Below, piece after piece: positions 16,205 to 36,004 of a DNA stretch of 64,000 bases. Source of the stretch: Rhodopseudomonas rhenobacensis. Its GTDB lineage: Bacteria; Pseudomonadota; Alphaproteobacteria; Rhizobiales; Xanthobacteraceae. Under the pieces are notes generated by a model. That model was not told the origin of the DNA. It searched no databases and saw nothing but the letters and a program-made list of their open reading frames with translations. The stretch spans positions 1 to 64,000 of the forward strand of contig NZ_JACHIH010000016.1 in assembly GCF_014203125.1 (NCBI RefSeq). The letters run 5' to 3'. The stretch's first letter is position 1. Each line of letters begins with the position of its first letter. The translations under genes were made by a program, and so were the position numbers.

Positions 16205-16206
16205 GC

Positions 16207-18173: not shown

Positions 18174-18210
18174 GGGTGCTCCAGGGTGTTTTGGTTTCGG
18201 TTGTCGGTTG

Positions 18211-20816: not shown

Positions 20817-21012
20817 GTTTCTCTCCCGAGGTCGCGTTCGTTGCGCGTTTGTTGCGGGTGCGTGCGGCTTTGCCGCTCCGCCCCGATGTGTTGACTGCAG
20901 TCTAACCTTGCCAAAGCCGAGACGTGGGCGCAATTTCGACCCTGCAACGTTCCAAAAATGAGACGATAGGCCGCGCGCGATGTTGCGCTGCGGCCGGGAG
21001 GCAACGATCCGG

Positions 21013-21954
21013 ATGACGCGCAAGCTCGACCTCAACGCGCTGTTGCTGTTCTTTGAAGTCACCAATGCGCGCAGCATCAGCGCCGCGGCGGCGAAGCTCG
21101 GGATTCCGAAATCCACCATCAGCCGCAAGATCCAGTTCCTCGAGGATCAGACCGGCGCCACGCTGTTCCGCAAGGGCAGCCGCAAGCTCACCACCACCGA
21201 CATTGGCCAGACGCTGTACGAGCATTGCGAGCGGATCGCCGCCGAGATCGAGGAAGCCGGGCTCGGCACCGCGCGGATGCAGACCGAATTGCGCGGCACG
21301 CTGCGGGTCAGCATGCCGGTGGACTTCGGCATCGGCTGGCTGTCGAGCGCGATCGCCGCCTTCGCGGTGACCTATCCGGATATCCATCTGGTGATCGACG
21401 CCAACAGCCGCTGGGTCGACGTCACCGTCGAGCCCTACGACGTCGCGGTGCAGCTCGGCCCGTTGCCGCAGACCCAGGGCGGCACCAGGCCGCTCGCGAG
21501 CATCACCCGCGGCGTCTATGCCAGTCCGGAGTTCTTGCGGCGCGCCGGCTCGCCGCTCAACATCGACGATTTCGGCCGGTTCGACTGCGTCGTCACCGAA
21601 CATCAGCGCGCCGAAGGGGTGTGGAACTTCCGCAGCGCGCAGGGCGCCAAGGTGATCAACGTCGCCGGCCGGATCACCGTCAATCACATCGGCATCGCCC
21701 GCGAACTGGTGATCGGCGGCGTCGGGCTCGGCATCCTGCCGAACATCATGTGCCAGAACGACGTCCGGGCGAAGCGGCTGAGCCGGGTGCTGACCGATTG
21801 GGAAAGCCCGGCGCTGCAGGTCTCGGCGACGTTTCCCGGCAAGCGCAAAGAGTCGCGGCGCTTGCGCACCTTCCTGGATTTTCTCGAACAAAAACTGAAG
21901 ATCGAGGGCGATCCGCGCGCCCGCGGCCCCGCCGCGCGGCAGGCCGGCGGCTAG
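21013..21954 (+). CDS. LysR family transcriptional regulator
   Basis: 313 aa from ATG 21013; an ATG at 20980 is an alternative but lacks a ribosome site, whereas CGGGAGG precedes 21013. The N-terminal helix-turn-helix reads NARSISAAAAKLGIPKSTISRKIQFLEDQTG, followed by the LysR substrate-binding domain (RVSMPVDFGIGWLSSAIAAF). The gene is divergent from the binding-protein gene at 20816 and likely controls the transporter/CoA operon in response to its substrate. Its end converges on the aldehyde dehydrogenase gene 27 bases away. Confidence 0.9.
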   Translation: MTRKLDLNALLLFFEVTNARSISAAAAKLGIPKSTISRKIQFLEDQTGATLFRKGSRKLTTTDIGQTLYEHCERIAAEIEEAGLGTARMQTELRGTLRVSMPVDFGIGWLSSAIAAFAVTYPDIHLVIDANSRWVDVTVEPYDVAVQLGPLPQTQGGTRPLASITRGVYASPEFLRRAGSPLNIDDFGRFDCVVTEHQRAEGVWNFRSAQGAKVINVAGRITVNHIGIARELVIGGVGLGILPNIMCQNDVRAKRLSRVLTDWESPALQVSATFPGKRKESRRLRTFLDFLEQKLKIEGDPRARGPAARQAGG

Positions 21955-21981: not shown

Positions 21982-23439
21982 CTACACCACGCCGCAGCTC
22001 TGATAGACGTGCTTGATCTCGAGGAAGTCGATCAGCGCATCGTAGCCGTGCAGGCGGCCGAGCCCGCTGCGGCGATAACCGCCGGTCTCGGCTTCGGCGA
22101 ACAGCTTGTTGTGGTCGTTGATCCACACCGTGCCGTTGCGCAGCGCCCTCGCCACCCGCATCGCGCGGGCGCCGTCATGGGTCCAGACGCTGGCGGACAG
22201 CCCATAGTCGCTGTGATTAGCGCGGGCCACCGCCTCTTTCTCATCCTCGAATTTTTCCAGCACCACCAGCGGCCCGAAAATTTCCTCCTGGACGAAGAAC
22301 GCCGAGGTGTCGCGATGCGCCACGAGCGTCGGCGACAGGAAGTAACCGTTGGCGAGATCGTCGGGCCGGCTGCCACGCAGCACCACCTCGTCGGCGGCCT
22401 GCATCGCCTCGTCGGTGCGCTTCGCCACGGCGGCCAGCGCGGCTGCGTCGATCAGCGGCCCCATCTCCGCGCCCGCCGCACTGCCCGGCGCAATCCGGAT
22501 ATTCGCCAGCGCGGCTTTCAGCGCCGATTTCATCTCGTCATAGCGCGAGGCGTGCACCAAGACGCGGCGCGCGGCGGTGCATTGCTGGCCGGCGATGATG
22601 GTCGCGGCATTGGCGAGCTTCGGCGCCACGTCGGCGATATCGGCGTCGTCGAACACCAGGCAGGCGGATTTGCCGCCGAGCTCGAGCGACAGTTTCTTCA
22701 TGGTCGGCGCCGCCGCCGCCATGATCCGCGCGCCGGTGGCGTTGGAGCCGGTGAAGCTGATGACGTCGACATCGCTCGACGTCACCAGATGCTCGGCGAC
22801 TTCGTGGCCCTGCTCGCTGACCAGATTGACCACGCCGCGCGGCAACCCCTCGACCTCCTGCAGGCATTTGATGATGGATGCGGTGATCTGCGCGGTCTGC
22901 GGCGCCGGCTTGATCACCACGGTGCAGCCGGCGGCAAGCGCCGGGGTCAGCGCGCGGATCAACAACACCGCCGGCGCATTCCACGGAATGATCAATCCTG
23001 CGACGCCTGCCGGCTCTTTCAGCAACGTCGAGAAGCTGCCCGGCTCGACCTCGAACACATGGCCGGGGATGTACCGCGTGAGCCCGGCGTAATAGCGGAT
23101 CTCGGAGACACTGCCGGCGATTTCGCCGCGCGACTGCGGCAGCGGCTTGCCGTTCTCCAGCGTCAGCAGCCGGGCGAGTTGGTCGGCCTGCGCCTCCATC
23201 CGGTCGGCCCAGCGCAGCATCACCATCTGCCGCGCCCGCGGGTTCTGCGACCACTCCGGCCGCTCGAAGGCGCGCCGCGCCGCCGCCACCGCGGCCTGCG
23301 CATCGGCGACGCCGCTGGCCGCGTAGCCGCCGATCGCGTCGCCGCTTGACGGATCGCGGCTCGGCGCGGTTGCGCCGGATTGCGCCGGCTGCCAGGCGCC
23401 GTCGATCAGATTATCCGCGTGCAGAGAAGTCATGCCCAT
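21982..23439 (-). CDS. Aldehyde dehydrogenase family protein at the end of the hmf operon
   Basis: 485 aa NAD(P)-dependent aldehyde dehydrogenase. The catalytic glutamate (LSLELGGKSACLVF) and cysteine (IIAGQQCTAARRV) are intact, as is the FTGSNATG cofactor motif. It begins 75 bases downstream of hmfE on the same strand. Placement suggests oxidation of furfural or a hydroxymethylfurfural-derived aldehyde to the furan acid handled by the island, but the family is broad and this is inference from context. ATG 23433 is an alternative start. Confidence 0.88.
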   Translation of the reverse strand: MGMTSLHADNLIDGAWQPAQSGATAPSRDPSSGDAIGGYAASGVADAQAAVAAARRAFERPEWSQNPRARQMVMLRWADRMEAQADQLARLLTLENGKPLPQSRGEIAGSVSEIRYYAGLTRYIPGHVFEVEPGSFSTLLKEPAGVAGLIIPWNAPAVLLIRALTPALAAGCTVVIKPAPQTAQITASIIKCLQEVEGLPRGVVNLVSEQGHEVAEHLVTSSDVDVISFTGSNATGARIMAAAAPTMKKLSLELGGKSACLVFDDADIADVAPKLANAATIIAGQQCTAARRVLVHASRYDEMKSALKAALANIRIAPGSAAGAEMGPLIDAAALAAVAKRTDEAMQAADEVVLRGSRPDDLANGYFLSPTLVAHRDTSAFFVQEEIFGPLVVLEKFEDEKEAVARANHSDYGLSASVWTHDGARAMRVARALRNGTVWINDHNKLFAEAETGGYRRSGLGRLHGYDALIDFLEIKHVYQSCGVV

Positions 23440-23514
23440 CGTCTCCCCAAAGAATGCTTCGGGCGGCGCGTCGTTTGGCGCGCGCCGCCTCGTCAGTGAA
23501 CCGATCCGGACGCC

Positions 23515-24321
23515 TCAGCGCCCGGTGAACTTCGGCGCGCGCTTGCTGTTGAAGGCTTCGACGCCTTCCTTGAAGTCGTCGGACTGCCGCAGCCGGCTGT
23601 AGCAATGGCCTTCCAGCTCGATCGCGATCGCCAGCGTGGAGTCCTCGGTGTCGTTCAGAAGCTTCTTGGCGGTGCGCTGCGCCAGCGGCGAGAACGCGCG
23701 CAACTCGTCGACCAACTTGTCGGTGGCCTTTTCCAGGTCGGCGTCGGCCATGCATTCGGTGGCGATGCCCCACTCCAGCGCCTGCTTGCCGGGAATCCGC
23801 TTGGAGCGCATCACAATGTCTTTGGTGCGGGTGATACCGATCATCTTCTGCAGCCGTGCGGAGCCGCCGGAGCCCGGGATCTGGCCGAGCTTCTGTTCCG
23901 GCAGCGCGTATTGCGTGGTCTCCGAGGCGAGGCGGAAATCGCAGGCCAGCGACAATTCGAAACCGACGCCGAAGCAATAGCCGCGATTGGCGACGATCAC
24001 CGGCTTGGCGCAGCGCGCCGGGGCTGCGATGTTCCACGCCAGCTTGGAGACGTGCTCCGGCGAGGCTTCCATGAAGCCGCCGATATTGCCGCCGCTGGAA
24101 AAATGCTCGCCGACCGAGCGCACCACGATGACGCGCACGCGATCGTCCTCGTCGAGGGTTTCGAACACCAGCCGCAACTGATCGCGCTGCGGCATGCTGA
24201 CGACGTTGTAGGGCGGCCGATCGAGGATGATGTCGGCGCGCTCGTGGGCTTCGTCGATCTCGACGTGAAAACCATCGAGCTTGCCGAGGCGGGGATCGGT
24301 GAAGGCGTAGGTTGACGGCAT
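23515..24321 (-). CDS. hmfE: Crotonase-family protein, probable 2-oxoglutaroyl-CoA hydrolase (HmfE)
   Basis: 268 aa crotonase-fold protein. In the furoate pathway HmfE cleaves the CoA ester formed after hydration of 5-hydroxy-2-furoyl-CoA, releasing 2-oxoglutarate. The two acidic positions of the family are present (GVGFELSLACD, LPEQKLGQIPGSGG), and the oxyanion-hole region is FSSGGNIGGF. Assignment rests mainly on gene order: large, medium and small molybdenum subunits, ligase, then this gene, the hmfABCDE order known from Cupriavidus basilensis HMF14. It follows the ligase gene by 27 bases. Confidence 0.75.
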   Translation of the reverse strand: MPSTYAFTDPRLGKLDGFHVEIDEAHERADIILDRPPYNVVSMPQRDQLRLVFETLDEDDRVRVIVVRSVGEHFSSGGNIGGFMEASPEHVSKLAWNIAAPARCAKPVIVANRGYCFGVGFELSLACDFRLASETTQYALPEQKLGQIPGSGGSARLQKMIGITRTKDIVMRSKRIPGKQALEWGIATECMADADLEKATDKLVDELRAFSPLAQRTAKKLLNDTEDSTLAIAIELEGHCYSRLRQSDDFKEGVEAFNSKRAPKFTGR

Positions 24322-24348
24322 TCGGAATGTCCTTCTGTTGAGAGAATT

Positions 24349-25917
24349 TCAGGCGGCGCCGGGCGGCGCGCTTTCCGGCTCGTAGTCGCCGGTGACCAGC
24401 AGCCGGCGCAGCAATTTGCCGACCGGGGATTTCGGCAGCGCGTCGACGAACACGAAGCGGCGCGGCCGCTTGAAATTGGCGAGCCCCGAGGCCTGGCAGA
24501 ACTGCTCCAGCTCGCGCTCGGTCACCTGTGCGCTGCGCTTGACGAACGCCACGACGATCTTGCCCCAGCGCTCGTCGGGCAGCCCGACCACCGCGACTTC
24601 GCCGACCGCGTCGTGCAGCGACAGGCAGCTCTCGACTTCGACGGGGGAGACGTTCTCGCCGCCGGTGATGATCATGTCGTCGACCCGGCCGGTGACGAAC
24701 AGGTCGCCGTCGCGATCCATGAAGCCGGTGTCGCCGGTGAAGTACCAGCCCTCGCGCAACGCCTTGGCGTCGGCTTCCGGCCGCCGCCAATAGCCCTCGA
24801 AGGCCTCATCGCTGGAAAGATGCGCGATGATCTCGCCCTCTTCGTCGGTCGCAGCGACGTCACTGACCGAGCCGGCGTTCAGCTCCACCACCCGGATGTG
24901 CTGATTGATGCCGGCGCGGCCGGCGGAGCCGGGCTTGGCCACCGCGTTCTGATCGATCGCAAACGTGTAGACTTCCGAGCTGCCGTAGTGATTGACGAAC
25001 AGCTCCGGCCGAAACGCCTGATCGAGCTTCTTCAACAGCCCGTCGGTCATCGACGCCCCGGCGAAGCCGAGCTTGCGCACGCTCGACACGTCGCTGCCGG
25101 CAAAGTCGGCGTGATACACCAGGTCGTGGTACAGCGTCGGCACCAGATAAAGATTGCTGATCTTCTCCGCGGCGATCAGCTGCAGCGCCTGGCGCGGATC
25201 GTAGCGCGGCAGGCAGACGAAGGTGCCGCCGATCAGCGACATCGCCAGCAGCGAGCGCACCCCCATGGTGTGATAGAGCGGCATCACGCCGAGCGTGCGT
25301 TCGCCGCGGCCGTAAAGATTCTGCGCCAGATGGGCGACCGCAGCGGCGCGCTCGGTGCGATGCCGTCGCGGCACGCCCTTCGGCTTCGAGGTGGTACCCG
25401 AGGTATAGAGCATGATCGACCACGCCTCGGCGCTGACCCGCGGCAGCGCGTCGGCGGCCTCGGCGGCGATCATACTAGAAAAGCTGAACGTCTTATTAGC
25501 AACGCTCGCGTCGGCATCGCCATCGAGCGAGATCCGCCGCAGCGATTGCGCCAACTTCGATTGCGCCACGGCCTCGGCGCTGACGTCCTGATAGGCCACC
25601 GCGCAGGATTCCGAATTCTCGATGCAGAAATCCAGCTCGTCGGCCTTCACACGCCAGTTCACCGGGGTGATGACGATGCCGGCGAACTGGCAGGCCCAGT
25701 GAATCGTCGCGGCTTCCCAGCGGTTCTGCAGCGCGGTGACCAGATGATCGCCGGGCTTCAGCCCGATCCGATCGAACGCTTCCACCAGCGACGAAATCTT
25801 GCCGTACCATTGCCGGTAGCTCAGCCGCAGATCGCCGTCGACGATGGCGATGGCATCGGGATCGCGCGCCACGCTGGCGATGAAACTGCGTCCGAGATCA
25901 AACATCGCGATGGTCAC
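24349..25917 (-). CDS. hmfD: Acyl-CoA ligase, probable 2-furoate-CoA ligase (HmfD)
   Basis: 522 aa adenylate-forming ligase. Motifs: LYTSGTTSKPKGVP, YGSSEVYTF, YFTGDTGFMDRDGDLFVTGR, then DDMIITGGENVSPVEVE, and the C-terminal lysine in SPVGKLLRRLL. It would activate 2-furoate to furoyl-CoA with ATP, the committed step before ring hydroxylation. Its start overlaps the 3' end of hmfC by 20 bases, so it is co-translated with the dehydrogenase. Function is inferred from operon order; the ligase family alone is not specific. Confidence 0.78.
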   Translation of the reverse strand: MTIAMFDLGRSFIASVARDPDAIAIVDGDLRLSYRQWYGKISSLVEAFDRIGLKPGDHLVTALQNRWEAATIHWACQFAGIVITPVNWRVKADELDFCIENSESCAVAYQDVSAEAVAQSKLAQSLRRISLDGDADASVANKTFSFSSMIAAEAADALPRVSAEAWSIMLYTSGTTSKPKGVPRRHRTERAAAVAHLAQNLYGRGERTLGVMPLYHTMGVRSLLAMSLIGGTFVCLPRYDPRQALQLIAAEKISNLYLVPTLYHDLVYHADFAGSDVSSVRKLGFAGASMTDGLLKKLDQAFRPELFVNHYGSSEVYTFAIDQNAVAKPGSAGRAGINQHIRVVELNAGSVSDVAATDEEGEIIAHLSSDEAFEGYWRRPEADAKALREGWYFTGDTGFMDRDGDLFVTGRVDDMIITGGENVSPVEVESCLSLHDAVGEVAVVGLPDERWGKIVVAFVKRSAQVTERELEQFCQASGLANFKRPRRFVFVDALPKSPVGKLLRRLLVTGDYEPESAPPGAA

Positions 25918-26419
25918 TCCTAGATAGCTCTGCGAGTTCGGCGGCCGCTTCGAGCGCCGCCTGGACGATCGGCGTGTAGCCGGTGCAGCGGCACAGATGA
26001 CCGCTCAGCAGATCGCGGATCTCGGCTTCGCTTGGCTTCGGATGGGCGCGCAAATAGTGATCGAGCGACATCAGGATGCCGGCGGTGCAGAAGCCGCATT
26101 GCAAAGCGTGGTTGCGGCGGAACGCGGCTTGCAACACGCCGAGCCGGTCCGGCGCCGGCGCCAGGCCCTCGACGGTGCGTAGTTCGCAGCCGTCGATCTG
26201 CACCGCGAGCGTCAAACAGGCGCGGGCGAGCTCGCCGTCGACGGTGATGGTGCAGGCGCCGCAGACGCCGTGTTCGCAGCCGACATGGGTGCCGGTGGCG
26301 CCGATGGTCTGGCGCAGGAAATCGGTGAGGAGTAGCCGCGGCTCGGCCTCGCCTTGCACCGGCTTGCCGTTGAGCGTGAAGCGCACCAAGTGGCGCTGGG
26401 CGGAGGACAGCCTTGTCAT
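25898..26419 (-). CDS. hmfC: 2Fe-2S subunit of a molybdenum hydroxylase, probable furoyl-CoA dehydrogenase (HmfC)
   Basis: 173 aa, the standard small-subunit size. The plant-type ferredoxin cluster is CEHGVCGACT with a fourth cysteine further on (ARACLTL). The C-terminal cluster has CGFCTAG and CRCTGYTPIV. Electrons from the molybdenum site pass through these two clusters to FAD. Start chosen at ATG 26419, which overlaps the hmfB stop (ATGA). The xanthine-dehydrogenase-family trio is certain; the furoyl-CoA substrate is from context. Confidence 0.85.
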   Translation of the reverse strand: MTRLSSAQRHLVRFTLNGKPVQGEAEPRLLLTDFLRQTIGATGTHVGCEHGVCGACTITVDGELARACLTLAVQIDGCELRTVEGLAPAPDRLGVLQAAFRRNHALQCGFCTAGILMSLDHYLRAHPKPSEAEIRDLLSGHLCRCTGYTPIVQAALEAAAELAELSRSDHRDV

Positions 26420-27228
26420 TGCAGCACCTCGCGCACCAAATCGCGGCCGATCAGTCGCACCAGGTCGCGGCGATAGCGCGCGGTGGCGTGGACGTCGTCG
26501 CGGGCGTCGAGCTCGTGGGCAAAGCCGTTCAGCGCGTCGTCGAGCGCGGAGCCTTCGAGCCGCGGCCAATCGCGCGCGGTCGGCACGTCGGCGACGCCGC
26601 CGACCGCGAAGCGCACGCCGTCCTTGGTGGCGACCGCGGCGCAGGCCACGATGGCGAAATCGCCGTGCCGTCGCGCCACTTCGCGGAACGCGCAGCGCGC
26701 ATTGCCGGACGGAAACGACACCGCCTCGATCAGTTCATCGTCGGCGCGTGCCGTCGCCATCATGCCGGCGAAAAATTCGCGCGCCGCGACCTTGCGCTGC
26801 TTGCCGGCGCTGCGCAGATGCAGTTCGCCGCCGAGCGCGACCAAAGCGAGCGGCAATTCGGCGCTGGGATCGGCATGCGCCAGCGAGCCGCACACCGTGC
26901 CGCGGCTCCTCGTCTGGGCGTGGCCGGTCCACGGCAGGGCTTTTGAAAGCAGTGGCAAACTTGTGGCAAGCTCCGGCCAGGCCAACAGCGCCGCCTGCCG
27001 CACCCCTGCGCCGATTTTGACGCTGCCGGACGTCGAGTCGATGCGGTCGAGCTCGCGCAGCCGCATGATGTCGATCAGCACTTTCGGCCGCGCCAGCCGC
27101 ATGTTCAGCATCGCCATCAGTGACTGACCGCCGGCGATGATGCGGGCGTCGCCGCCGTGCTGCGCCAGCACCTCGATCGCTTCGCCGAGCGTCTCAGCGC
27201 GGACGTAGTCGAACGCCGCCGGCTTCAT
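26416..27228 (-). CDS. hmfB: FAD-binding medium subunit, probable furoyl-CoA dehydrogenase (HmfB)
   Basis: 270 aa from ATG 27228, which overlaps the hmfA stop (ATGA). The N-terminal FAD motifs of the CoxM/xanthine dehydrogenase family are visible: ARIIAGGQSLMAMLNMRL and TRSRGTVCGSLAHADPSAEL. The C-terminal CO-dehydrogenase flavoprotein domain follows. It transfers electrons from the iron-sulfur subunit to an acceptor. Between hmfA and hmfC in a tight three-gene set. Confidence 0.85.
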   Translation of the reverse strand: MKPAAFDYVRAETLGEAIEVLAQHGGDARIIAGGQSLMAMLNMRLARPKVLIDIMRLRELDRIDSTSGSVKIGAGVRQAALLAWPELATSLPLLSKALPWTGHAQTRSRGTVCGSLAHADPSAELPLALVALGGELHLRSAGKQRKVAAREFFAGMMATARADDELIEAVSFPSGNARCAFREVARRHGDFAIVACAAVATKDGVRFAVGGVADVPTARDWPRLEGSALDDALNGFAHELDARDDVHATARYRRDLVRLIGRDLVREVLQ

Positions 27229-30227
27229 CGCGACCACCCGATTAGTCGCAGAAGGCGCGTCAGCCAGGACTCGCTCGGCACCGGCTTGCCGCCGGCGGTG
27301 GCGGCGAGCGCCGTGAAGAATCTTCCGATGATGACGCGCGTCGCGCCGTCGAGCAATCGGCCGCCGATGCTGGCGACCTTGCCGCCGATCGCCGCCTCAT
27401 AGACGTAAGTCATCGTGGTGCCGCCGTTGCTATCAGGCGCAAGCGTGATGCGGCCTTCGCCGCCGCCGAAGCCGAGCGCGCCCTCGGCGGTGCCGCCGAG
27501 CGTCACCGCGCGCGGCGGATCGAGATCGGAGAGCTTGACGTCGGCGCGATAGCGCCCGGTCACCGGACCAATGCCGAGCGTCACCTCGGCGCGAAAATGC
27601 GTGTCGGAGATTTTGTCGACGCGCTCGCAGCCGGGGATCACGCTCTTCAGCGTCTCCGGATCGAGCAGCATCGCCCAGACTTGTTGCGGCGGCGCGCCGA
27701 CCGACGCGCTCCCCTCGCCGCGCAGCTTGCGGTCGTTGCCACCGGCGCGTGGCGCCACGGGCGCACGGCCGCCCGCGGGGGCGGCGGGCTCATCGCCGCG
27801 CACGATCTGAGCCAACCGCGCCGGCGCCAGTGGCAACGTGATATCCTTGATGCCGAGCGCATCGGCGACCGCGTTGGCGATGCACACCGGCGTCGACATG
27901 CAATTGCCCTCGCCGACGCCCTTGGCGCCGAGCGGCGTGAACGGCGACGGCGTTTCCATATGCAGGATCGTAGGCTCCGGCACTTCCATGGTGGTCGGCA
28001 ACAAGTAATCGGCGAGCGTGCCGGTGAGGAAGCTGCCGTCGGGCGCGTAGGCGTATTCTTCGTAGAGCGCGGCGCCGATCGCCTGCGCGAAGCCGCCGCG
28101 GATCTGGCCGTCGACCATGCCGGGATGCAGGATGGTGCCGCAATCGTGCATGGTGACGTAGCGATCGATCTTGGTTTCCAGCGTCACGGGGTCGATCTCG
28201 ACGCCGCAGAAATCGAAGATGAAGCCGTGGCACAGCGAGGAGTTCACCCGGTCGGAATCATCCGGCGCTGCCAATTCGGGCGGCGTCCAGAACACGGTTT
28301 CGCGCAAGGTGTTGCCGACGTCGTCCGGCAACGAGCCCGGCGACCAATGGCTCAGCGCGGCGAGCCGCGTGAACGCGATGCTGTTGTCGGGGTTGGACTT
28401 GGAGCCGACCCGGCCGCCGCGGAACACCACGTCGGCAAAGTCGATGTTCAACTGGCTCGCGGCAACACGCGCCAGCCGCTCCGCGAGGCGTCCGGCGGCG
28501 AGTTTGGCGGTGCCGGCCACCGCAGCGGCAAAGCGGCTCGCGTAGTTGCCGGACGCGATCGACCAGGCATCCTTCGAAGTATCGATCTCGGTATTGACGC
28601 GGACGTCGGCGGGCGCAACGCCGAACACGTCGGCGACCACCTGCGACAGCACGGTGCGATGGCCCTGGCCCTGCGGCACCGAGGCGACGTGCACGGTGAT
28701 GCCGCCGACCGGATCGAGCGCCACGGTGGCTGTGGCCTGCGCGCCGTTCTTCGGCCCGGCCTTGCGGCGCTCCGCCGCGGTCAGCACCGTGGTGATGTAG
28801 CCCATGTTGGAGACGCTGGGCTCGACCACGGCGGTGTAGCCGATGCCATAGAGCCGGCCCTGCGCCCGCGCCGCGTCGCGCCGTGCCTTCAGCTCGGCGA
28901 GCCCGCCGCCTTGGACGCCGCGCGCGATCGCCTCTTGGTAGTCGCCGGAATCCAGCAGCGCGCCGGTCGCGGTGCGATAGGGAAACGATCCGGCCGGAAC
29001 CAGATTGCGTTTGATCACCTCGAGCGGATCGAGGCCGAGTTCGACCGCGATGCGCTGCAGCAGCCGCTCCAGCGCGAAATACACTTGCGGGCCGCCGAAG
29101 CCGCGGTTGAGCCCGGTGGGGGTCTTGTTCGTCACAACCACGCGGTTGCGCACCGCGACGTTGTCGATCGCATAGGCGCCGGTGAGATTGCCGTGCATCC
29201 GGTACAGCGTCGCCGGCTCCGGCGCGCGCAAATGCGCGCCGCAATCCTCGACCTGATCCCAGTCGAGCGCGAGTATCTTGCCGTCGGCGGCGACCGCCGC
29301 CGCGATGGAGGTCGCGCGATTAGTCGCCGACACCGAGGCGGTGAGATGTTCGAGCCGGTCCTCGATCCATTTCACCGGGCGGCCGACCACCCGCGAGGCC
29401 GCGGCGATCAGCACGATATAGGGAAACACCCCCTGCTTGATGCCGAAGCTGCCGCCGGAATCCGGCGGCGTGCGCAGCCGCAGCCGATTGCCCGGCACCT
29501 TCAGCGCGCGCGAGATCACCGCGTGGATGCTGAACGGCCCCTGGAAATTGGCCAGCACGTCGAAGGCATCTTCCGCTGCGTCGTAATCGGCGACCACGCC
29601 ATAGGTTTCGATCGGGGTGCAGGAATTGCGCGGATACTTGATGGCGATGGAGATTTGATGCGGCGCCTCGGCGAAGGCGCGCTCAGGATCGCCGTAGCGG
29701 AAGCTGCGATCGCTGGCGACGTTGCCGGCAAAGCCGTCGTGCAGCACCACCGCGTCGGGTGACAGCGCTTTGAGCGGATCGATCACCGCTTCGCGCACCT
29801 GATAGTCGACCTCGATCAGATCGACGCCGTCCTCGGCGACGTAGCGATCGGTCGCGACGACGATCGCCACGGCCTCGCCCGCATAGCGCACCCGGCCGAC
29901 CGCGATCGGCCAGCATTGCACCGGCGCCTTGACGCCGACCACGAGGCTCGAGGTCAGCGCGGTGATATCTTCGCCGGTGAGCACCGCGACGACGCCCGCG
30001 ACCTTTAACGCGGCTTCGGTGCGGATCGCCAAGATGTCGGCGTGGGCGTGCGGCGAGCGCAGCATCGCGGCGTAAAGCGTGCCGGGCCGAGTTCCAAGGT
30101 CATCGATGAATCGCCCGCGTCCGGTGAGCAATGCTGCGTCTTCGACGCGCTCGATCGAGCGGCCGACCCAAGGCCGGTCGACGTCGCGCTCGATTGCCGC
30201 ATCGGCGGGTTTCGCCATCCTGAACAC
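27225..30227 (-). CDS. hmfA: Molybdenum-binding large subunit fused to a CoxG-like domain, probable furoyl-CoA dehydrogenase (HmfA)
   Basis: 1000 aa, longer than a typical ~780-residue CoxL subunit. Residues ~20-780 form the aldehyde oxidase/xanthine dehydrogenase a/b hammerhead and molybdopterin domains: DSGGSFGIKQG, the active-site loop GLNRGFGGPQ and the catalytic glutamate in LGAKGVGEGN. After a proline/alanine linker, residues ~815-960 form an SRPBCC/CoxG domain (VWAMLLDPETLKSVIPGCE). The enzyme would hydroxylate C5 of 2-furoyl-CoA with water. GTG 30227 or ATG 30218 may start. The hydrolase, ligase and small subunits follow in hmf order. Confidence 0.85.
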   Translation of the reverse strand: MFRMAKPADAAIERDVDRPWVGRSIERVEDAALLTGRGRFIDDLGTRPGTLYAAMLRSPHAHADILAIRTEAALKVAGVVAVLTGEDITALTSSLVVGVKAPVQCWPIAVGRVRYAGEAVAIVVATDRYVAEDGVDLIEVDYQVREAVIDPLKALSPDAVVLHDGFAGNVASDRSFRYGDPERAFAEAPHQISIAIKYPRNSCTPIETYGVVADYDAAEDAFDVLANFQGPFSIHAVISRALKVPGNRLRLRTPPDSGGSFGIKQGVFPYIVLIAAASRVVGRPVKWIEDRLEHLTASVSATNRATSIAAAVAADGKILALDWDQVEDCGAHLRAPEPATLYRMHGNLTGAYAIDNVAVRNRVVVTNKTPTGLNRGFGGPQVYFALERLLQRIAVELGLDPLEVIKRNLVPAGSFPYRTATGALLDSGDYQEAIARGVQGGGLAELKARRDAARAQGRLYGIGYTAVVEPSVSNMGYITTVLTAAERRKAGPKNGAQATATVALDPVGGITVHVASVPQGQGHRTVLSQVVADVFGVAPADVRVNTEIDTSKDAWSIASGNYASRFAAAVAGTAKLAAGRLAERLARVAASQLNIDFADVVFRGGRVGSKSNPDNSIAFTRLAALSHWSPGSLPDDVGNTLRETVFWTPPELAAPDDSDRVNSSLCHGFIFDFCGVEIDPVTLETKIDRYVTMHDCGTILHPGMVDGQIRGGFAQAIGAALYEEYAYAPDGSFLTGTLADYLLPTTMEVPEPTILHMETPSPFTPLGAKGVGEGNCMSTPVCIANAVADALGIKDITLPLAPARLAQIVRGDEPAAPAGGRAPVAPRAGGNDRKLRGEGSASVGAPPQQVWAMLLDPETLKSVIPGCERVDKISDTHFRAEVTLGIGPVTGRYRADVKLSDLDPPRAVTLGGTAEGALGFGGGEGRITLAPDSNGGTTMTYVYEAAIGGKVASIGGRLLDGATRVIIGRFFTALAATAGGKPVPSESWLTRLLRLIGWSR

Positions 30228-30312
30228 GTGCTCCCGGTCGCGCTTGTTTTTCGCGCGTTCCGTAACTTGTCAGGTGGAAGGGCTATCGAGCCATGCCGAG
30301 CGTGCTCGGCAA

Positions 30313-30328
30313 TTACCAAACCGTCTCA
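30313..30328 (-). promoter_or_regulatory. Candidate shared operator TTACCAAACCGTCTCA upstream of hmfA
   Basis: The 16 bases differ at one position from 39407-39422 upstream of livK. Relative to the minus-strand genes both read TGAGAC(G/C)GTTTGGTAA. This copy is ~85 bases before the hmfA start, in the araC-hmfA gap. A chance match this long between two promoter regions of plausibly linked genes is unlikely but not excluded. Confidence 0.4.
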
Positions 30329-30351
30329 TTCGCGAAACGGCCGCGCGGCAA

Positions 30352-31194
30352 TCAGCTCGCCAGCCGCGACACGTTGCGGAATTCGCGCGGGCCGACGCCG
30401 GAGTGATTGCGGAAGAACCGGGTGAAATGCGCGGGCTCGGCGAAGCCCAGCCGCTCGCCGATTTCGGCGAACGGCGCGTCCTGATGCAGCACCGCCTGCA
30501 CCGCGTGTTCCATCCGCACCACGTTGAGATAGACCTTCGGCGGCATGCCTTCGGAATTCTCGAATAGCCGGAAGAAATGCGCGCGCGACAGCCCTGCCGC
30601 CTTGGCGAACTTGTCCATGTTCGGCGCCTGCCCGGCTTCGGCGCGCATCGCGTCGATCGCCCGCCGGATCCGCCAATCGCGTCCGGTCACCGCCATCTCG
30701 CGGATCGAAGCCGGGAAGCTGCGCCACGGCGTGAAGCGTTCGATCACCGCCACCATCAGGTCGGACAACAACGTCTCGTGCACGGAGACGTTGTCGGGCC
30801 GCGACATCATCTCGGCGGCGAGCGCCATGGTGAGGTTGCGAATCCGCGGCGAGATTTCGCCGGAGGGTTGGCTGAAGAACCCGGGGGCGCCGCTCGCCGC
30901 CCAGCCCGGTCGAAATCGCTTCAGCCATTGCGGCTCGACATAGAGCGCGAGGATCAGCGTGCAAGGCCGGCTCGGATCATGCACATAAGCGTGCGGCTGC
31001 CAGCCATTGACCAGCACCGCGCAGCTATCGGTGAGCGGATAGACCTGGTCGCCGACCGCGAACTGGGTGTCGGCGCCTTCGACCTTCAAGAGAACGTGGC
31101 AATGCGGATGGGCGTGCCGCACCAGCGAACAGTCCATGTCCAACAAGGCGACGCGGCCGAATTCGCCATGGGCGATACGCAACGCAGTCGACAT
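30352..31194 (-). CDS. AraC family transcriptional regulator
   Basis: 280 aa. The N-terminal half is a cupin-type sensor domain (LVRHAHPHCHVLLKVEG and VYPLTDSCAVLVNGWQPHAY). The C-terminal ~100 residues contain the two AraC helix-turn-helices (MDKFAKAAGLSRAHFFRLF and EIGERLGFAEPAHFTRFFRN). It lies between hmfF and hmfA on the same strand and ends 125 bases before hmfA, so it is the likely local activator of hmfABCDE, sensing a furan acid or CoA ester. In Cupriavidus the described hmf regulators are LysR type, so this is a different arrangement. Confidence 0.9.
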   Translation of the reverse strand: MSTALRIAHGEFGRVALLDMDCSLVRHAHPHCHVLLKVEGADTQFAVGDQVYPLTDSCAVLVNGWQPHAYVHDPSRPCTLILALYVEPQWLKRFRPGWAASGAPGFFSQPSGEISPRIRNLTMALAAEMMSRPDNVSVHETLLSDLMVAVIERFTPWRSFPASIREMAVTGRDWRIRRAIDAMRAEAGQAPNMDKFAKAAGLSRAHFFRLFENSEGMPPKVYLNVVRMEHAVQAVLHQDAPFAEIGERLGFAEPAHFTRFFRNHSGVGPREFRNVSRLAS

Positions 31195-31206
31195 CGCATC
31201 CTCCGC

Positions 31207-31415
31207 TCAGACGTTGGTCCTCCAGGGGATCAATCTCCGTTCGATCTCGTCCAACACGATGGAGAAAACGAACCGAGACTGGCGATCACCAGAAGGCCAA
31301 CATACATGGTGTCGACGGTCAGCACCTGCCAGGCGTTTCAGATCATCAATCCGATGCCGTCGTTGGACGCCACCATTTCCGATATCGCGATCAGGATCAA
31401 CCCCATGCGATGGAT
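31207..31415 (-). pseudogene. Decayed 3' fragment of a NitT/TauT ABC permease gene
   Basis: Read on the minus strand from ~31415, the frame gives RMGLILIAISEMVASNDG, then GIGLMI and an in-frame TGA at 31338-31340. It continues as NAWQVLTVDTMYVGLLVIAS and loses one base near 31272-31276. In the shifted frame FVFSIVLDEIERRLIPWRTN leads to the stop at 31207. This is unmistakably the C-terminus of an SsuC/TauC-type permease, about 68 codons of an expected ~260, with one nonsense and one frameshift lesion. The fragment is squeezed between hmfF and araC. Confidence 0.85.
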
Positions 31416-31418
31416 ACG

Positions 31419-32840
31419 CTAGGCGGACAGAATCCCTGCCAGCGCCGCTTTCGGATCGCTCTGCAGCGCGCGCGACAAATCGACGTCCTCCAGGCCATGA
31501 ACGTGAATGCGCTTGAACACCATCGGCTCGGCTTCGATCGGCTTGGTGGCGTCGAGGCCCATCTTGGCGCTGATGCCGCCGTCGCTGGAAGGATCGAGCT
31601 TGGAGCCCTGCGCGCCGGACACGACTAACAAGTCGCGATCGGCCTGGAACCGGGTGGCGATCGCCCATTCGATCTCGTGCGGATCGTCGATGTCGACATC
31701 CATGTCGACGATCACCACCTGCTTCACGTCGTAATGACCGCCGAACGCCCCCATGATAATGTTCTTCGGCTCGCCATTGTTGGTCTTGTCGATCTTCACC
31801 ACGAGGTGATAGCGGCACACCCCGCCGCGCGTCAGCCGCACGTCGCGAACGCTGGAAAAGCTGCGCTGCAGATGCTCCAGCAGCGTCGCCTCGCGGGGAA
31901 TTTCGCCGAGCACCAGATGCTCCATGCCGCCGCCGACGATGGTGTGGAAGATCGGATTGGCGCGATGGGTGATGGCGTCGACCTGAATGACTTCGCGATC
32001 GGCGCGCGGGCCGTAATATTGCGGAAATTCGCCGAACGGGCCTTCCGGCTCGCGCACTCTCGGCAAGATGCGGCCTTCGATCACGATCTCGGCGTGCGCC
32101 GGCACCCGTACCGCGTTGGTGCGGCACTTCACCATCTCGATCGGATGGCCGAGCAGCGCGCCGGCGATTTCCATCTCGTCCTCGTCGACCGCGGCGATTG
32201 CCTGCGACGCCAGGATGCAGGCCGGATGCACGCCGATCACCAGCGCGATCTCCAGCGCCTGCCCGGCTTGCTCCGCCATCTTGAAGTAATGCAGGGTGTG
32301 GCGCGGCAACAGCAGCACGCCGATCCGATCGGGGCCACTGACCTGGCAGCGATGGATCGAGACGTTCTGGATTCCGGTCACAGGATTGCGCGCGATCAGC
32401 AATGCGGCGGTGATATAGGGCCCGCTGTCGTGCTCATTGTGCTTGGGGATCGGCAACTGCTTTAAGAGATCGACGTCGCGGTGGATCACCTGTTGTGCCG
32501 GGGCCTCATTGACCTCGATCCAGGGCAGCGGATGCCGCACGGCGTCCTGAAACCGGGTCAGCAGCTGATCGGTCGGCACGCCGAGCGAGTCGGCGACCCA
32601 GCTGCGGTCGGCGAAGATGTTGGCGACCACCGGGATCGCGTGCTGGCCGGGCTGCGGAAACAGCACCGCGCTGTCGCGCTCCAGCACCTTGGCCACCGCG
32701 GCGAGCTCGTCGATCAGCGCAACGCCGTCGCGCGCCACCGCGAGACGATCGTTCGCCGCGAGCTGCCGGAGCCAACTGCGCAGATCCGGCGTGGCGTTGT
32801 GCCCGGCGACGGCGTGAAGGCTGCTTGTCTGGGTCATCAT
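31419..32840 (-). CDS. hmfF: UbiD-family decarboxylase, probable furan-2,5-dicarboxylate decarboxylase (HmfF)
   Basis: 473 aa from ATG 32840 (ATG 32837 and GTG 32861 also possible; AGAGGA sits just upstream of the ATG pair). The UbiD active-site motif REPEGPFGEFPQYYG with the catalytic glutamates is intact, as is the SIHRCQVSGPDRIG region with the conserved arginine. The enzyme needs prenylated FMN, supplied by the UbiX-type gene immediately upstream. In Cupriavidus hmfF and hmfG decarboxylate furan-2,5-dicarboxylate to 2-furoate, which feeds hmfABCDE. Other aromatic acids remain possible substrates. Confidence 0.8.
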   Translation of the reverse strand: MMTQTSSLHAVAGHNATPDLRSWLRQLAANDRLAVARDGVALIDELAAVAKVLERDSAVLFPQPGQHAIPVVANIFADRSWVADSLGVPTDQLLTRFQDAVRHPLPWIEVNEAPAQQVIHRDVDLLKQLPIPKHNEHDSGPYITAALLIARNPVTGIQNVSIHRCQVSGPDRIGVLLLPRHTLHYFKMAEQAGQALEIALVIGVHPACILASQAIAAVDEDEMEIAGALLGHPIEMVKCRTNAVRVPAHAEIVIEGRILPRVREPEGPFGEFPQYYGPRADREVIQVDAITHRANPIFHTIVGGGMEHLVLGEIPREATLLEHLQRSFSSVRDVRLTRGGVCRYHLVVKIDKTNNGEPKNIIMGAFGGHYDVKQVVIVDMDVDIDDPHEIEWAIATRFQADRDLLVVSGAQGSKLDPSSDGGISAKMGLDATKPIEAEPMVFKRIHVHGLEDVDLSRALQSDPKAALAGILSA

Positions 32841-32861
32841 GTCCTCTGGCAACGGGGGCAC

Positions 32862-33479
32862 TTAGTTCGACCGATCGGTCGCGGCGGGGCGGCGCTGCAG
32901 CGCCGGGTCTTCGCCCCAGCGCGGCGCCACGCCGACGTCGATGTCGTAAAGATCGAGCACCCGCCCGACGGTGTGGTCGACCATGTCCGCGATGCTGTCC
33001 GGCTTGGCGTAGAACGCCGGCACCGGCGGCGCGATGATGGCGCCGATCTCCGACAGCGCGGTCATGGTGCGCAGGTGCCCGGTGTGCAGCGGCGATTCGC
33101 GCACCATCAGCACCAGGCGGCGGCGCTCCTTCAGCGTGACGTCGGCGGCGCGGGTCAGCAGCGTGGTGGTGACGCCCGAGGCGATTTCCGACATCGAGCG
33201 CATCGAGCACGGCGCGACGATCATCCCCATGGTGCGGAACGAGCCGGAGGCGAGCGCGGAGGCCATGTCGTCGATTGCGTGATGGACGTCGGCCAGCGCC
33301 TTGACGTCGGCGATCTTCAGCCTGGTCTCGTAGGCGAAGGTGATCTCCGCGGTCTTCGACATCACCAGATGGGTCTCGACCCCGGCGTTGCGCAACAGCT
33401 GCAGCAGCCGCACGCCATAGATCACCCCGGACGCGCCGGAAATGCCGACGACCAGGCGTCGCCGCGAAGGCTGCATCAT
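32862..33479 (-). CDS. hmfG: UbiX-family flavin prenyltransferase (HmfG)
   Basis: 205 aa from ATG 33479. It joins dimethylallyl phosphate to FMN to make the prenylated FMN cofactor of UbiD enzymes. Family motifs: RLVVGISGASGVIYGVRLL at the start, MIVAPCSMRSMSEIASG and RRLVLMVRESPLHTGHLRTM. It ends 21 bases before the hmfF start, the common ubiX-ubiD pairing. The first gene of the furan island transcript, divergent from a LysR gene. Confidence 0.88.
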   Translation of the reverse strand: MMQPSRRRLVVGISGASGVIYGVRLLQLLRNAGVETHLVMSKTAEITFAYETRLKIADVKALADVHHAIDDMASALASGSFRTMGMIVAPCSMRSMSEIASGVTTTLLTRAADVTLKERRRLVLMVRESPLHTGHLRTMTALSEIGAIIAPPVPAFYAKPDSIADMVDHTVGRVLDLYDIDVGVAPRWGEDPALQRRPAATDRSN

Positions 33480-33628
33480 GGTTTCCACCCGAACTCCCTT
33501 GGTTCCGCGCGTCATCGTTGATCGGACGCGCGGCCAGAGCGCCGACGCTACGCGCCGCATCCGATCACCGCAAATAATAGATTTTGATTTTCTCGATCAT
33601 CGAAAGTGATGGTAGGGTCCGTGGCGAC

Positions 33629-33633
33629 GGAGG
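33629..33633 (+). promoter_or_regulatory. Shine-Dalgarno GGAGG deciding the LysR start at 33641
   Basis: GGAGG is seven bases before ATG 33641. The frame is open from ATG 33584, but that start lies in the probable promoter and lacks a ribosome site. Confidence 0.6.
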
Positions 33634-33640
33634 ATGCCCG

Positions 33641-34570
33641 ATGGATTTCAAGCAGATGCAGTATTTCCTGTGCCTGGCGCAGGAGGGCAACGTCACCCGC
33701 GCGGCGCGGCAGCTCAACATCGTGCAGCCGGCGCTCAGCATGCAGATCGCCAAGCTGGAGAAATCCGTCGGCAAGCAGTTGTTCTATCGCCAGGCGCACG
33801 GCGTGGCGCTGACCGCGGCGGGCGAAACGCTGGCGAGGCTCGCCGGCGCGATCATGCAGAATATCGATCACGCCCGCGAAGAAATGGCGCGGCTCGACGG
33901 CAAGATCTCCGGGCGGGTGTCGATCGGCATGATCACCTCGGCGGCGCAGAGCACCCTGGCCACGTCCTCGGCAAAGATCGCGGCGCGCTATCCGGAAATC
34001 CAGCTGTCGGTGTGCGAGGGCTATACCGAGGTGCTGCTGGACTGGGTGACCACAGGCCAGCTCGACATCGCCATCGTCAACATGCCGCCGGGCAAATCCA
34101 CGCTCACCGCGCACCACATCCTCGACGAGCAGATGATGCTGGCGCGGCGGCCCGGCAGCGCGCTGGTGCTGCCGGCGATCGTTCCCTATGCGCGGCTGAA
34201 GGACATCGACATCGTGATCCCATCGCGGCGCCATGGCCTGCGCCGCATTCTCGACGCCGCCGCGGCGGAGGCCGGGTTCAGCCTGAAGCCGCGGCTGGAG
34301 ATCGATACGCTGTCGGCGGTCTGCGAGGTGGTGGCGACCACCGACCTCGTCACCGTGCTGCCGGGCATCGCGCTGCACGCAGCGCTCGCGGAAGGCCGGC
34401 TGCAGGCGCATCGGCTGAAGAAGCCGGCGATCACCCGCGCCGTGGCCTGGACCACCCACCCGCGCCGCGTGGTGTCGGCGGCGATGACCGCGGTGATGGA
34501 GATCATCTCGGCGGATCTGTTGGCGGCGGCGAAACAAGCCTCGCGGCTCACGTTCACAGCACCGCGATGA
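33641..34570 (+). CDS. LysR family transcriptional regulator, divergent from hmfGF
   Basis: 309 aa. N-terminal helix-turn-helix MDFKQMQYFLCLAQEGNVTR followed by AARQLNIVQPALSMQIAKLE; C-terminal substrate-binding domain (GRVSIGMITSAAQSTLA, TDLVTVLPG). Divergent from hmfG across ~160 bases that include an A/T-rich stretch (33571-33610), the expected LysR operator zone. LysR regulators accompany hmf genes in Cupriavidus, so control of hmfGF is likely. Its 3' end overlaps the convergent livF end by 17 bases. Confidence 0.9.
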   Translation: MDFKQMQYFLCLAQEGNVTRAARQLNIVQPALSMQIAKLEKSVGKQLFYRQAHGVALTAAGETLARLAGAIMQNIDHAREEMARLDGKISGRVSIGMITSAAQSTLATSSAKIAARYPEIQLSVCEGYTEVLLDWVTTGQLDIAIVNMPPGKSTLTAHHILDEQMMLARRPGSALVLPAIVPYARLKDIDIVIPSRRHGLRRILDAAAAEAGFSLKPRLEIDTLSAVCEVVATTDLVTVLPGIALHAALAEGRLQAHRLKKPAITRAVAWTTHPRRVVSAAMTAVMEIISADLLAAAKQASRLTFTAPR

Positions 34571-35267
34571 CGTCCATCAGCCGGGCGCGGTCGACGGCGT
34601 CCTTGGCGTTGCCGGTGAGCACCACGGCGCCGCGCTCCAGCGCGTAGAAGCGGTCGGCGACGCCGAGCGCGCCGTCGACATTCTGCTCCACCAGCAGGAT
34701 GATGGTGCCGGCCGCCTTCATTTCCTTGATGATGGCGAAGATGTCGGCGACGATCATCGGTGCGAGGCCCTCGCTCGGCTCGTCGATCAAGGCCAGACGC
34801 GGCTGGCCGACCATGATCCGCGCCATCGCCAGCATCTGCTGCTCGCCGCCGGACAGCGTGGTGCCGGCCTGCCGCCGCCGTTCGGCGAGCCGCGGCATCC
34901 GCTCGTAGATCAGCTCGATCTCGCGGTTTTGTTCGGCGCGGCTGCGACCCTTGCGCTGCATCAGGCCGAGCTTGAGATTTTCCTCGACGCTGAGGCCGGG
35001 AAAGATCCGGCGATCTTCCGGCACGAAGCCGACGCCGTGGTGGCAGACTTTATCTGCCGTCAAGCCATCGAGCCGCTGGCCGTCGAGCGTGATGGCGCCG
35101 CCGGAGGCGCCGACCCAGCCCGCCACCGCCTTCATCAGCGTGGTCTTGCCGACGCCGTTGCGGCCGAAGATGCCGATCACTTCGCCGGGCGCAGCTTCGA
35201 GCGAGACGCCCTGGATGATGTGCGACAGCCCGTAATGCACCTGAAGCTGATCGATGCTGAACATCAC
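34554..35267 (-). CDS. livF: Branched-chain-type ABC transporter ATP-binding protein
   Basis: 237 aa LivF-type ATPase. Walker A GRNGVGKTT, signature LSGGEQQML, Walker B LALIDEPSEGLAP and switch LLVEQNVDGA. It pairs with the LivG-type ATPase whose stop overlaps its start (ATGA). The HAAT family carries branched-chain amino acids but also aromatic and other carboxylates in this group of bacteria. Adjacent furan genes make furan acids a reasonable alternative cargo. Symbol reflects family, not proven substrate. Confidence 0.88.
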   Translation of the reverse strand: MMFSIDQLQVHYGLSHIIQGVSLEAAPGEVIGIFGRNGVGKTTLMKAVAGWVGASGGAITLDGQRLDGLTADKVCHHGVGFVPEDRRIFPGLSVEENLKLGLMQRKGRSRAEQNREIELIYERMPRLAERRRQAGTTLSGGEQQMLAMARIMVGQPRLALIDEPSEGLAPMIVADIFAIIKEMKAAGTIILLVEQNVDGALGVADRFYALERGAVVLTGNAKDAVDRARLMDVIAVL

Positions 35268-36004
35268 GCGTGCCCGAAATAAGCTGACTTCACCGCGGGA
35301 TCAGCCCGCACCACCGCCGGCGCGCCTTCGGCGAGCTTGCGGCCTTGATGCATCACCACGATGTGGTTGGAGATATCCATCACCACGCCGATGTCGTGCT
35401 CGATCAACAGAATGGTGACGTCGCGCGCCAGATCGCGGATCAGCGCGGCGGTGTCGGCGGTGTCGGAATGACTCATGCCCTGGGTCGGCTCATCCAGCAA
35501 CAGGATGCTGGGCTCGGTGGCGAGCGCCACCGCGATTTCGAGCCGGCGCTGTTCGCCGTGCGACAGCGCGCCCGCCAACTCGCCGGCTTTCGGCGCCAGC
35601 GCGAAGCGTTCGACCAGTTCATGCACCCGCGCCAGCGCCCGCTCGCTGCGACGCACCGGCAGCAGGAAGCGTCCGGTGGTTTCGAGGCGCTGCGCCGCCA
35701 GCCGCAGGTTCTCGAACACGGTGAGCTCGAAGAACAGATTGGTGATCTGAAACGAGCGCCCCATTCCGGCGCGCTGCATCAGATAGGGCGGTCGTCCCGT
35801 CAGATCGACGCCGCGCAGCATCACCTTGCCGGAACTCGGCCGAATCATGCCACTGATCAGATTGAACAGCGTGGATTTGCCGGCGCCGTTGGGGCCGATG
35901 ATGGTGGTGATCGCATTCGATTCGGCGTCGAACGAGACGCCGTCGACGGCGCGGATGCCGCCGAAGCGGACGCCGAGCCCGCGGACTTCCAGCACCACGC
36001 TCAT
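35264..36004 (-). CDS. livG: Branched-chain-type ABC transporter ATP-binding protein
   Basis: 246 aa LivG-type ATPase. Walker A GPNGAGKST, signature LSHGEQRRLEIA (histidine in place of the second glycine position, common in LivG), Walker B ILLLDEPTQGMSH and switch LLIEHDIGVVMD. The C-terminal tail (LAEGAPAVVRADPAVKSAYFG) is the classic LivG ending. Overlaps both neighbours by four bases, showing tight translational coupling. Confidence 0.9.
   Translation of the reverse strand: MSVVLEVRGLGVRFGGIRAVDGVSFDAESNAITTIIGPNGAGKSTLFNLISGMIRPSSGKVMLRGVDLTGRPPYLMQRAGMGRSFQITNLFFELTVFENLRLAAQRLETTGRFLLPVRRSERALARVHELVERFALAPKAGELAGALSHGEQRRLEIAVALATEPSILLLDEPTQGMSHSDTADTAALIRDLARDVTILLIEHDIGVVMDISNHIVVMHQGRKLAEGAPAVVRADPAVKSAYFGHA

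Follow-up and report, generated by a model that had tools for sequence, protein, structure and literature searches.

The hmf pathway, which converts furan-2,5-dicarboxylate (FDCA) or 2-furoate to 2-oxoglutarate, is already known and has been described for Cupriavidus basilensis HMF14 (PMC6678421, PMC12064950). Here, we analyze a candidate hmf locus in Rhodopseudomonas rhenobacensis (NCBI RefSeq assembly GCF_014203125.1), located on contig NZ_JACHIH010000016.1 within positions 1 to 64,000; this whole stretch of 64,000 nucleotides is referred to as the window. The locus has the hmfABCDE, HmfF, and HmfG complement in common with the HMF14 cluster, with the same predicted chemistry. It very probably belongs to the known hmf type, as a regulon for furan-acid catabolism in which the enzymes are joined by a liv-type importer, AraC/LysR control, and a CoxG arm; the cluster itself is an ordinary hmf pathway that is probably functional.

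Going by the published descriptions, the locus is set apart from the HMF14 cluster by an AraC gene between hmfF and hmfA and by the lack of a detected HmfH orthologue in the genome, and it is tied to a liv-type ATP-binding cassette (ABC) transporter. HmfT of C. basilensis is a major facilitator superfamily (MFS) carrier; the window was not searched for MFS genes. In Pseudomonas umsongensis GO16, AraC is taken to govern the lower pathway and LysR the upper one, and an aldehyde dehydrogenase (ALDH), PsfA, and a UbiX-type partner are present as they are here (PMC12064950). In Pseudomonas pseudoalcaligenes CECT 5344, AraC is required for growth on furfural, and hmfFG and hmfH are lacking (PMC6678421). 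The transporters differ, with HmfI and HmfT in GO16 and an MFS gene in CECT 5344, but a liv ABC transporter here (PMC12064950, PMC6678421).

Dinoroseobacter shibae pDSHI01 holds UbiX, LysR, UbiD, ALDH, AraC, hmfABCDE, and livKHMGF, with CoxG fused as in the present locus; it differs in gene order and in its livK, which lies close behind hmfE and has no operator of its own. A first, sequence-only reading of the window had treated the AraC gene, a divergent LysR gene, and an ALDH as departures from the known clusters. This view does not hold, since D. shibae has all three and AraC is already part of the published Pseudomonas clusters (PMC6678421, PMC12064950), which also rules out AraC as a feature that makes the cluster unusual. 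Geobacillus kaustophilus pHTA426 has UbiD, a molybdenum large subunit, CoxG, FAD and FeS subunits, a ligase, and a hydratase, but its CoxG is a separate gene, its HmfA core is 49% identical, and it carries an MFS transporter as well as XdhC and cofactor genes. The Mo-Cu carbon monoxide (CO) dehydrogenase likewise combines a CoxL-like large subunit with a CoxG component; in contrast to that enzyme, the protein studied here misses the NCBIfam cut-offs for CO dehydrogenase, and its CoxG is fused instead of separate.

The hmf enzymes and a putative AraC operator

The hmfABCDE genes are contiguous on the minus strand and encode molybdenum, FAD, and FeS subunits, a CoA ligase, and a hydratase, in the order found in the annotated Cupriavidus and Dinoroseobacter records. 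The products of hmfA (27225-30227, 1000 residues by open reading frame (ORF); Pfam Ald_Xan_dh_C, MoCoBD_1, MoCoBD_2, and COXG), hmfB (26416-27237; FAD_binding_5 and CO_deh_flav_C), hmfC (25898-26419, a [2Fe-2S] subunit with the likely start at 26419 in a frame open to 26569; Fer2 and Fer2_2), hmfD (24349-25917; AMP-binding, a putative AMP-forming 2-furoyl-CoA synthetase), and hmfE (23515-24321; enoyl-CoA hydratase family, with no NCBIfam crotonase model above cut-off among the matches listed) are 59, 54, 61, 61, and 80% identical to the Cupriavidus pinatubonensis set and 63, 60, 64, 65, and 70% identical to the D. shibae set, respectively. The best match of HmfD in the PDB is a 4-chlorobenzoyl-CoA ligase (250 bits).

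HmfA scores well short of the cut-offs of the NCBIfam models for CO dehydrogenase, xanthine dehydrogenase, and 4-hydroxybenzoyl-CoA reductase; against the models for the CO dehydrogenase large subunit it reaches 474 bits (cut-off 950) and 431 bits (cut-off 991). In the PDB it scores highest with a CoxL (396 bits) and quinoline 2-oxidoreductase (392 bits), and no furoyl-CoA dehydrogenase is among the matches. The Cu-binding motif of the Mo-Cu CO dehydrogenase is absent from the sequence. The sequence-only reading had named a grouping of HmfA or HmfF with other CoxL or UbiD families as the outcome that would speak against it; by score, HmfF does not group in this way, as discussed below, and for HmfA the evidence is indirect, coming from its identity of 59-63% to large subunits of annotated ABCDE clusters.

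Relatives of the locus were taken from the best 80 of 196 HmfA matches, mostly contigs of Bradyrhizobium and other Alphaproteobacteria. By tblastn, hmfA, hmfB, and hmfC follow each other in order in 78 of the 80 loci; the remaining two (L041, L057) stop within hmfA. Because of this conservation and the annotated ABCDE order in Cupriavidus and Dinoroseobacter, the arrangement is not due to chance. The loci have limited length, so counts of accessory genes are lower bounds: AraC occurs in at least 74, hmfF in at least 44, hmfG in at least 42, and an ALDH of at least 50% identity in at least 15. Locus L036 has two separate hmfF matches (79% and 56%), and the gene may be broken or duplicated there. 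At an E-value of 1e-200, HmfA is found in 85 of 296 genomes of the family; HmfF, at 1e-80, is found in five of 398 genomes of the phylum, including the source genome. These genome searches score few candidates per genome (two in the 296-genome search).

The araC-family activator gene (30352-31194, minus strand; HTH_18 and AraC_binding) lies directly upstream of hmfA. Alignment of 76 AraC-hmfA intergenic regions, from 75 loci and the window, revealed a conserved block, TGAGACGnnTnGGTAAGTCGTGAGAnnGGnCGGTAT, made up of two half-sites 20 bp apart. The half-site TGAGACNNNNNGGTAA occurs exactly twice in the 5.18-Mb genome, while its reversed control does not occur at all. One of the two copies (30313-30328) stands before hmfA, within an operator at 30293-30328 on the minus strand whose second half is weak, and the other (39407-39422) stands before livK, within a second operator copy at 39390-39422 on the same strand that was located by half-site searches of the window and the genome.

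Presence of the half-site follows presence of the regulator. In each of the 80 loci with AraC adjoining hmfA, the window among them, the half-site score is 9 of 11 or higher, with 70 perfect, whereas 20 of 22 loci without AraC score at most 8 of 11; the tally leaves out L034, with a short upstream region, and L136, which has no hmfA. In the two exceptions without an adjacent AraC (L037, L077), an orthologue of the regulator is encoded elsewhere in the genome (72 and 68% identity). Among 15 genomes with an AraC-less hmf region, 12 have no AraC match at 1e-20 and three have matches of only 29-41%, in contrast to the orthologues of 59-85% in five operator-bearing genomes tested alongside. Such co-variation is expected of a regulator paired with its site. 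In addition, 83 loci (1.71 Mb) hold 90 exact half-sites, compared with 0.36 expected from base composition, and a longer form of the operator occurs at 17 sites in 11 of the 296 family genomes, all 11 being among the 85 with HmfA, while the reversed pattern gives no match. The scores over 30 positions use a consensus drawn from the same sequences, with a lowest observed score of 20 of 30 and a highest shuffled control of 20, reached once in 380. The exact genome search, the 296-genome search, and the tallies of AraC presence and absence are more independent checks, although most loci in the latter are the same, and common ancestry inflates such counts. The best reading of these data is that this AraC controls hmfABCDE together with a furan-acid importer, whose type would differ by lineage.

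The CoxG domain of HmfA

The sequence-only reading had missed a CoxG domain at the C-terminal end of HmfA. Pfam COXG matches residues 839-977 (27297-27713, minus strand) with 94 bits against a cut-off of 22.2 (PF06240, E 7.7e-28 in the genome search). CoxG is fused in the same reading frame in all 80 top loci, two of which are cut by contig ends, and also in the Cupriavidus (L084) and D. shibae (L085) proteins. Geobacillus pHTA426 encodes an unfused large subunit immediately followed by a CoxG gene (L086:10418-10876); apart from the first residue and a tag, the CoxG sequence equals that of PDB entry 2PCS, deposited only as a 'conserved protein'. A model of the CoxG domain (predicted local distance difference test (pLDDT) score 81) gave 2PCS and 2NS9 as top Foldseek matches, followed by Mycobacterium smegmatis CoxG (8UDS), an entry with a lipid-anchoring C-terminus in its title; a full-length model of HmfA had a mean pLDDT of 70 and was set aside. 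The C-terminal 24 residues of HmfA carry a net positive charge in all 81 fused proteins analyzed (L041 and L057, cut by contig ends, and the unfused L086 were left out). This tail tends to be amphipathic, with on average 9% of shuffles reaching the observed moment; its helix in the model has block pLDDT values of 52-57, and the structure of the tail is weakly supported. A stand-alone CoxG gene encoding 156 residues is present elsewhere in the genome (L090, contig C23).

A fusion in every HmfA was ruled out by 13 short HmfA proteins without CoxG. They come from 15 regions picked to examine this point, of which L129, included as a distant representative of the fused form, is fused and L132, cut by a contig end, was not counted; by hand count, about 30 HmfA matches end near residue 805-828 among the matches listed for the 296 family genomes. 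Because such short proteins exist and nest within the fused group, CoxG is dispensable, that is, not essential to HmfA in general. All 10 short-HmfA genomes tested hold CoxG genes, and in two (G445, G473) CoxG is also fused to a second HmfA-like protein. In a tree built by a quick method from 54 of 103 core sequences, with some long branches and mixed support, the placement of the short forms inside the fused group requires four changes in all, and losses of CoxG are therefore more likely than one gain.

In Oligotropha carboxidovorans, CoxG recruits CO dehydrogenase to the membrane (PMC4240915), and in Sulfolobus it anchors a dehydrogenase there (PMC11962113). By analogy, CoxG and the basic tail likely provide furoyl-CoA dehydrogenase with a membrane or quinone arm. 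CoxG could serve as a membrane anchor only, with electrons passing from the FAD of HmfABC straight to quinone as proposed for the O. carboxidovorans CO dehydrogenase, and we give this alternative serious, if somewhat less than even, weight. The net positive tail fits it, as do O. carboxidovorans coxG mutants, which still use CO with a sevenfold longer generation time while their extracts contain no particulate CO dehydrogenase (PMC4240915), and the glycerol-3-phosphate dehydrogenase partnered by CoxG in Sulfolobus, which reduces quinone without CoxG and so favors anchoring over carrying (PMC11962113). CoxG is, however, also cited as a quinone-binding carrier (Kropp et al. 2025, as cited in the survey PMC13240472), and the domain in HmfA retains the CoxG fold in the Foldseek comparison of its model.

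Probable entry points, candidate importers, and predicted substrate

The ALDH gene (21982-23439, minus strand, 485 residues; Pfam Aldedh) is a candidate for a furfural or 5-formyl-2-furoate dehydrogenase. The protein stays under the cut-off in all 25 NCBIfam models listed of the 45 matched, and no specific function was assigned. It sits between hmfE and a second gene set (14237-21954) that encodes a CoA ligase, a thiolase, a hydratase, an NMT1-type ABC transporter, and a second LysR; portions of this module also accompany hmf in L004, L005, and L029, and L038 has them in a different order. As a possible feeder pathway, the module was compared with NCBIfam models, which assigned no specific function. 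Urocanase and imidazolonepropionase genes of histidine utilization, with further ABC transporter genes around them, lie at 5920-8843. From this position between both gene sets, the ALDH could belong to the module instead of furan breakdown, and in L038 a 52% identical ALDH does stand beside hydratase, thiolase, and ligase genes. We regard such an assignment as unlikely, since the ALDH directly follows hmfE here, as same-strand ALDHs of 77-84% identity do in seven loci (L004, L029, L030, L042, L044, L060, L083), and orthologues of 63-68% lie near hmfF in D. shibae and two further genomes.

The absence of hmfH from the window, noted in the sequence-only reading, was borne out by the lack of any GMC_oxred_C match among the window proteins, and no HmfH orthologue was found in the genome. 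Its three GMC proteins are all encoded on other contigs. As reference for this search, in place of C. basilensis HmfH, we used the GMC proteins encoded close to hmf in relatives; identity to these is 28-37% and reaches no more than 43%, across roughly half of the length. Twelve of the fetched loci (L006, L007, L009, L012, L018, L025, L039, L042, L044, L060, L065, L077) carry GMC-like genes in the vicinity of hmf, checked with Pfam for L006, L042, L065, and L077, and these genes are candidate HmfH genes only. Because no orthologue was found, the likely entry points to the pathway are furoate, FDCA, furfural, and 5-formyl-2-furoate, with 5-hydroxymethylfurfural (HMF) acid not among them. HmfH is not needed for the use of furoate or FDCA.

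The liv-type ABC transporter had also been missed. Its genes lie on the minus strand in the order livF (34554-35267) and livG (35264-36004), encoding ATPases, livM (36001-37038) and livH (37031-37924), encoding permeases, and livK (37986-39158; Peripla_BP_6), encoding a solute-binding protein predicted to be a furan-acid receptor; the other four were assigned by Pfam. The operator stands 265 bp upstream of livK. A gene for a Schlafen AlbA_2/RecG-C-like protein (39665-41197), located between livK and tRNA-Phe (41431-41506), might be a small insertion at the tRNA. In relatives, the operator also precedes livK in L004, L027, L133, L134, L135, and L136, and where livK is separate from hmfE its half-site is perfect in three of three loci, whereas in the nine loci with livK 90-167 bp behind hmfE the best site reaches 7-9 of 11 and never exceeds 9. 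L136, a 3.4-kb contig of genome G553 without hmfA, was located by the operator alone, with the site about 0.6 kb before the start of a livK homologue (80% identity). An extra half-site on the other strand occurs in 21 loci, and the next gene encodes a TctC receptor in all four checked. The operator before livK or TctC in relatives therefore predicts a furan-acid importer. ATPase and permease genes of an NMT1-like ABC transporter (25-38%) lie between hmfF and araC in L005, L030, L040, L042, L044, L060, and L083 and are another candidate importer.

The family annotation of liv is of the branched-chain amino acid or urea type, with livK below both urea-receptor cut-offs, and only 10-11 of the 80 loci, as a lower bound, have liv genes in the neighborhood of hmf. 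Both facts would suit an ordinary amino-acid importer that merely adjoins hmf. This explanation is quite improbable, given that the region upstream of liv carries one of the only two exact half-sites in the genome, that livK lies close behind hmfE in nine loci, and that the operator alone led to livK on a separate contig of G553.

HmfF (31419-32861, minus strand) is a predicted prenylated-FMN-dependent FDCA decarboxylase of the UbiD family that aligns with PtHmfF (6h6v) across residues 26-464 at 472 bits, compared with 193 bits for the next family in the PDB set; the placement is by score, not by a tree. Counted on the phmmer alignment, His315 and Arg323 correspond to His296 and Arg304 of PtHmfF, and the pair is kept in 45 of 49 HmfF matches from the fetched loci, the other four stopping before the site. 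The arginine (Arg304 in PtHmfF) presumably contributes to furan specificity. The histidine, numbered 297 in PMC7976604, is key for furan substrates. Degradation of a related five-membered ring acid, such as pyrrole-2-carboxylate or thiophene-2-carboxylate, would involve similar chemistry, pyrrole-2-carboxylate decarboxylases are UbiD-family enzymes too (PMC7976604), and the furan substrate is assigned here from sequence, but this alternative is very improbable since the pyrrole enzyme PA0254 scores only 70 bits with HmfF, against 472 for PtHmfF, and has Asn in place of the HmfF His (PMC7976604), while the present protein keeps the His/Arg pair.

The proposed regulon and its meaning

The arrangement read from the sequence alone, with hmfG-hmfF, araC, hmfABCDE, and the ALDH in this order on one strand, agrees with ORFs, Pfam, NCBIfam, and translations, and the divergent LysR gene is found at 33584-34570 on the plus strand (HTH_1 and LysR_substrate; likely start near 33641). 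The gene for HmfG, which exceeds two UbiX cut-offs (TIGR00421, NF004685), spans 32862-33479 on the minus strand in a frame open to 33560, and the end point of that reading, 33479, coincides with its likely start. Overlap between genes, claimed for the cluster as a whole, stands for hmfA/hmfB (13 bp), hmfB/hmfC (an ATGA with the hmfC start at 26419), and hmfC/hmfD (20 bp by ORF), but not for the remaining joints: hmfG and hmfF adjoin, and there are gaps of 27 bp between hmfD and hmfE, 75 bp between hmfE and the ALDH gene, 124 bp between araC and hmfA, and 224 bp between hmfF and araC. Elsewhere in the window, a KdgT permease and an SBD_N/NBD_C-type kinase are encoded at 55137-57559, with a DeoR regulator nearby (53070-53846).

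In the proposed mechanism, the liv-type transporter would import 2-furoate and/or FDCA, the inward direction being our assumption. HmfG would supply prenylated FMN to HmfF, which would decarboxylate FDCA to 2-furoate, and the ALDH may feed in by oxidizing furfural or 5-formyl-2-furoate. HmfD would then form 2-furoyl-CoA, the molybdenum enzyme HmfABC would hydroxylate it, and HmfE would help to release 2-oxoglutarate. AraC is predicted to bind the direct-repeat operator before hmfA and livK, by which uptake and the lower pathway would be switched on together. The divergent LysR may control hmfGF; a conserved inverted-repeat block in the LysR-hmfG control region (33480-33640), seen in 31 aligned regions including the window, fits LysR control of the upper pathway. 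The CoxG domain and basic tail would keep HmfA at the membrane and help electrons to reach the quinone pool, the putative acceptor.

Several points weigh against this reading. No exact match to the strict long operator is present in 74 of the 85 HmfA genomes, and the full operator before hmfA in the window fits only 23 of 30 positions. A window scan allowing up to two mismatches gave two matches, both exact, and is not significant alone; because two or more also occur in 19 of 100 shuffles, the exact whole-genome search is the meaningful one. In L135, where livK lies about 0.6 kb behind hmfE, livK nevertheless has an operator to itself. The loci are related to each other, some being near-copies (L005 and L137 have identical HmfA cores), and the characterized HmfA-G proteins were compared only through the Cupriavidus and Dinoroseobacter stand-ins and PtHmfF. 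The scarcity of liv genes near hmf, the short HmfA proteins, which the tree places within the fused group, and the CoxG-independent quinone reduction in Sulfolobus count on the same side. We found no experiments on this organism in print.

Novelty could lie in two features beyond the known pathway: the CoxG arm, and the AraC operator together with the importers that it predicts. In our searches of open-access literature, partly limited to the top 10 or 15 matches, neither the CoxG fusion nor the operator nor an ABC uptake role came up. A broader proposal, which we judge to be evenly balanced, is that in many Proteobacteria furoyl-CoA dehydrogenase has its own quinone-shuttling, membrane-anchoring arm, consisting of CoxG and a basic amphipathic tail, and that one AraC with a strongly conserved direct-repeat operator couples the enzyme to interchangeable importers, either liv-type ABC transporters or systems with a TctC receptor, depending on the lineage. 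FDCA is a bioplastic monomer, and transporters for it are scantly described (PMC12064950). If the proposal is true, the operator would read out importers of furoate and FDCA, which have hardly been described so far, and the CoxG fusion would make the electron route of furoyl-CoA dehydrogenase approachable by truncation, with a solved structure, 2PCS, already available from a furan-type cluster.

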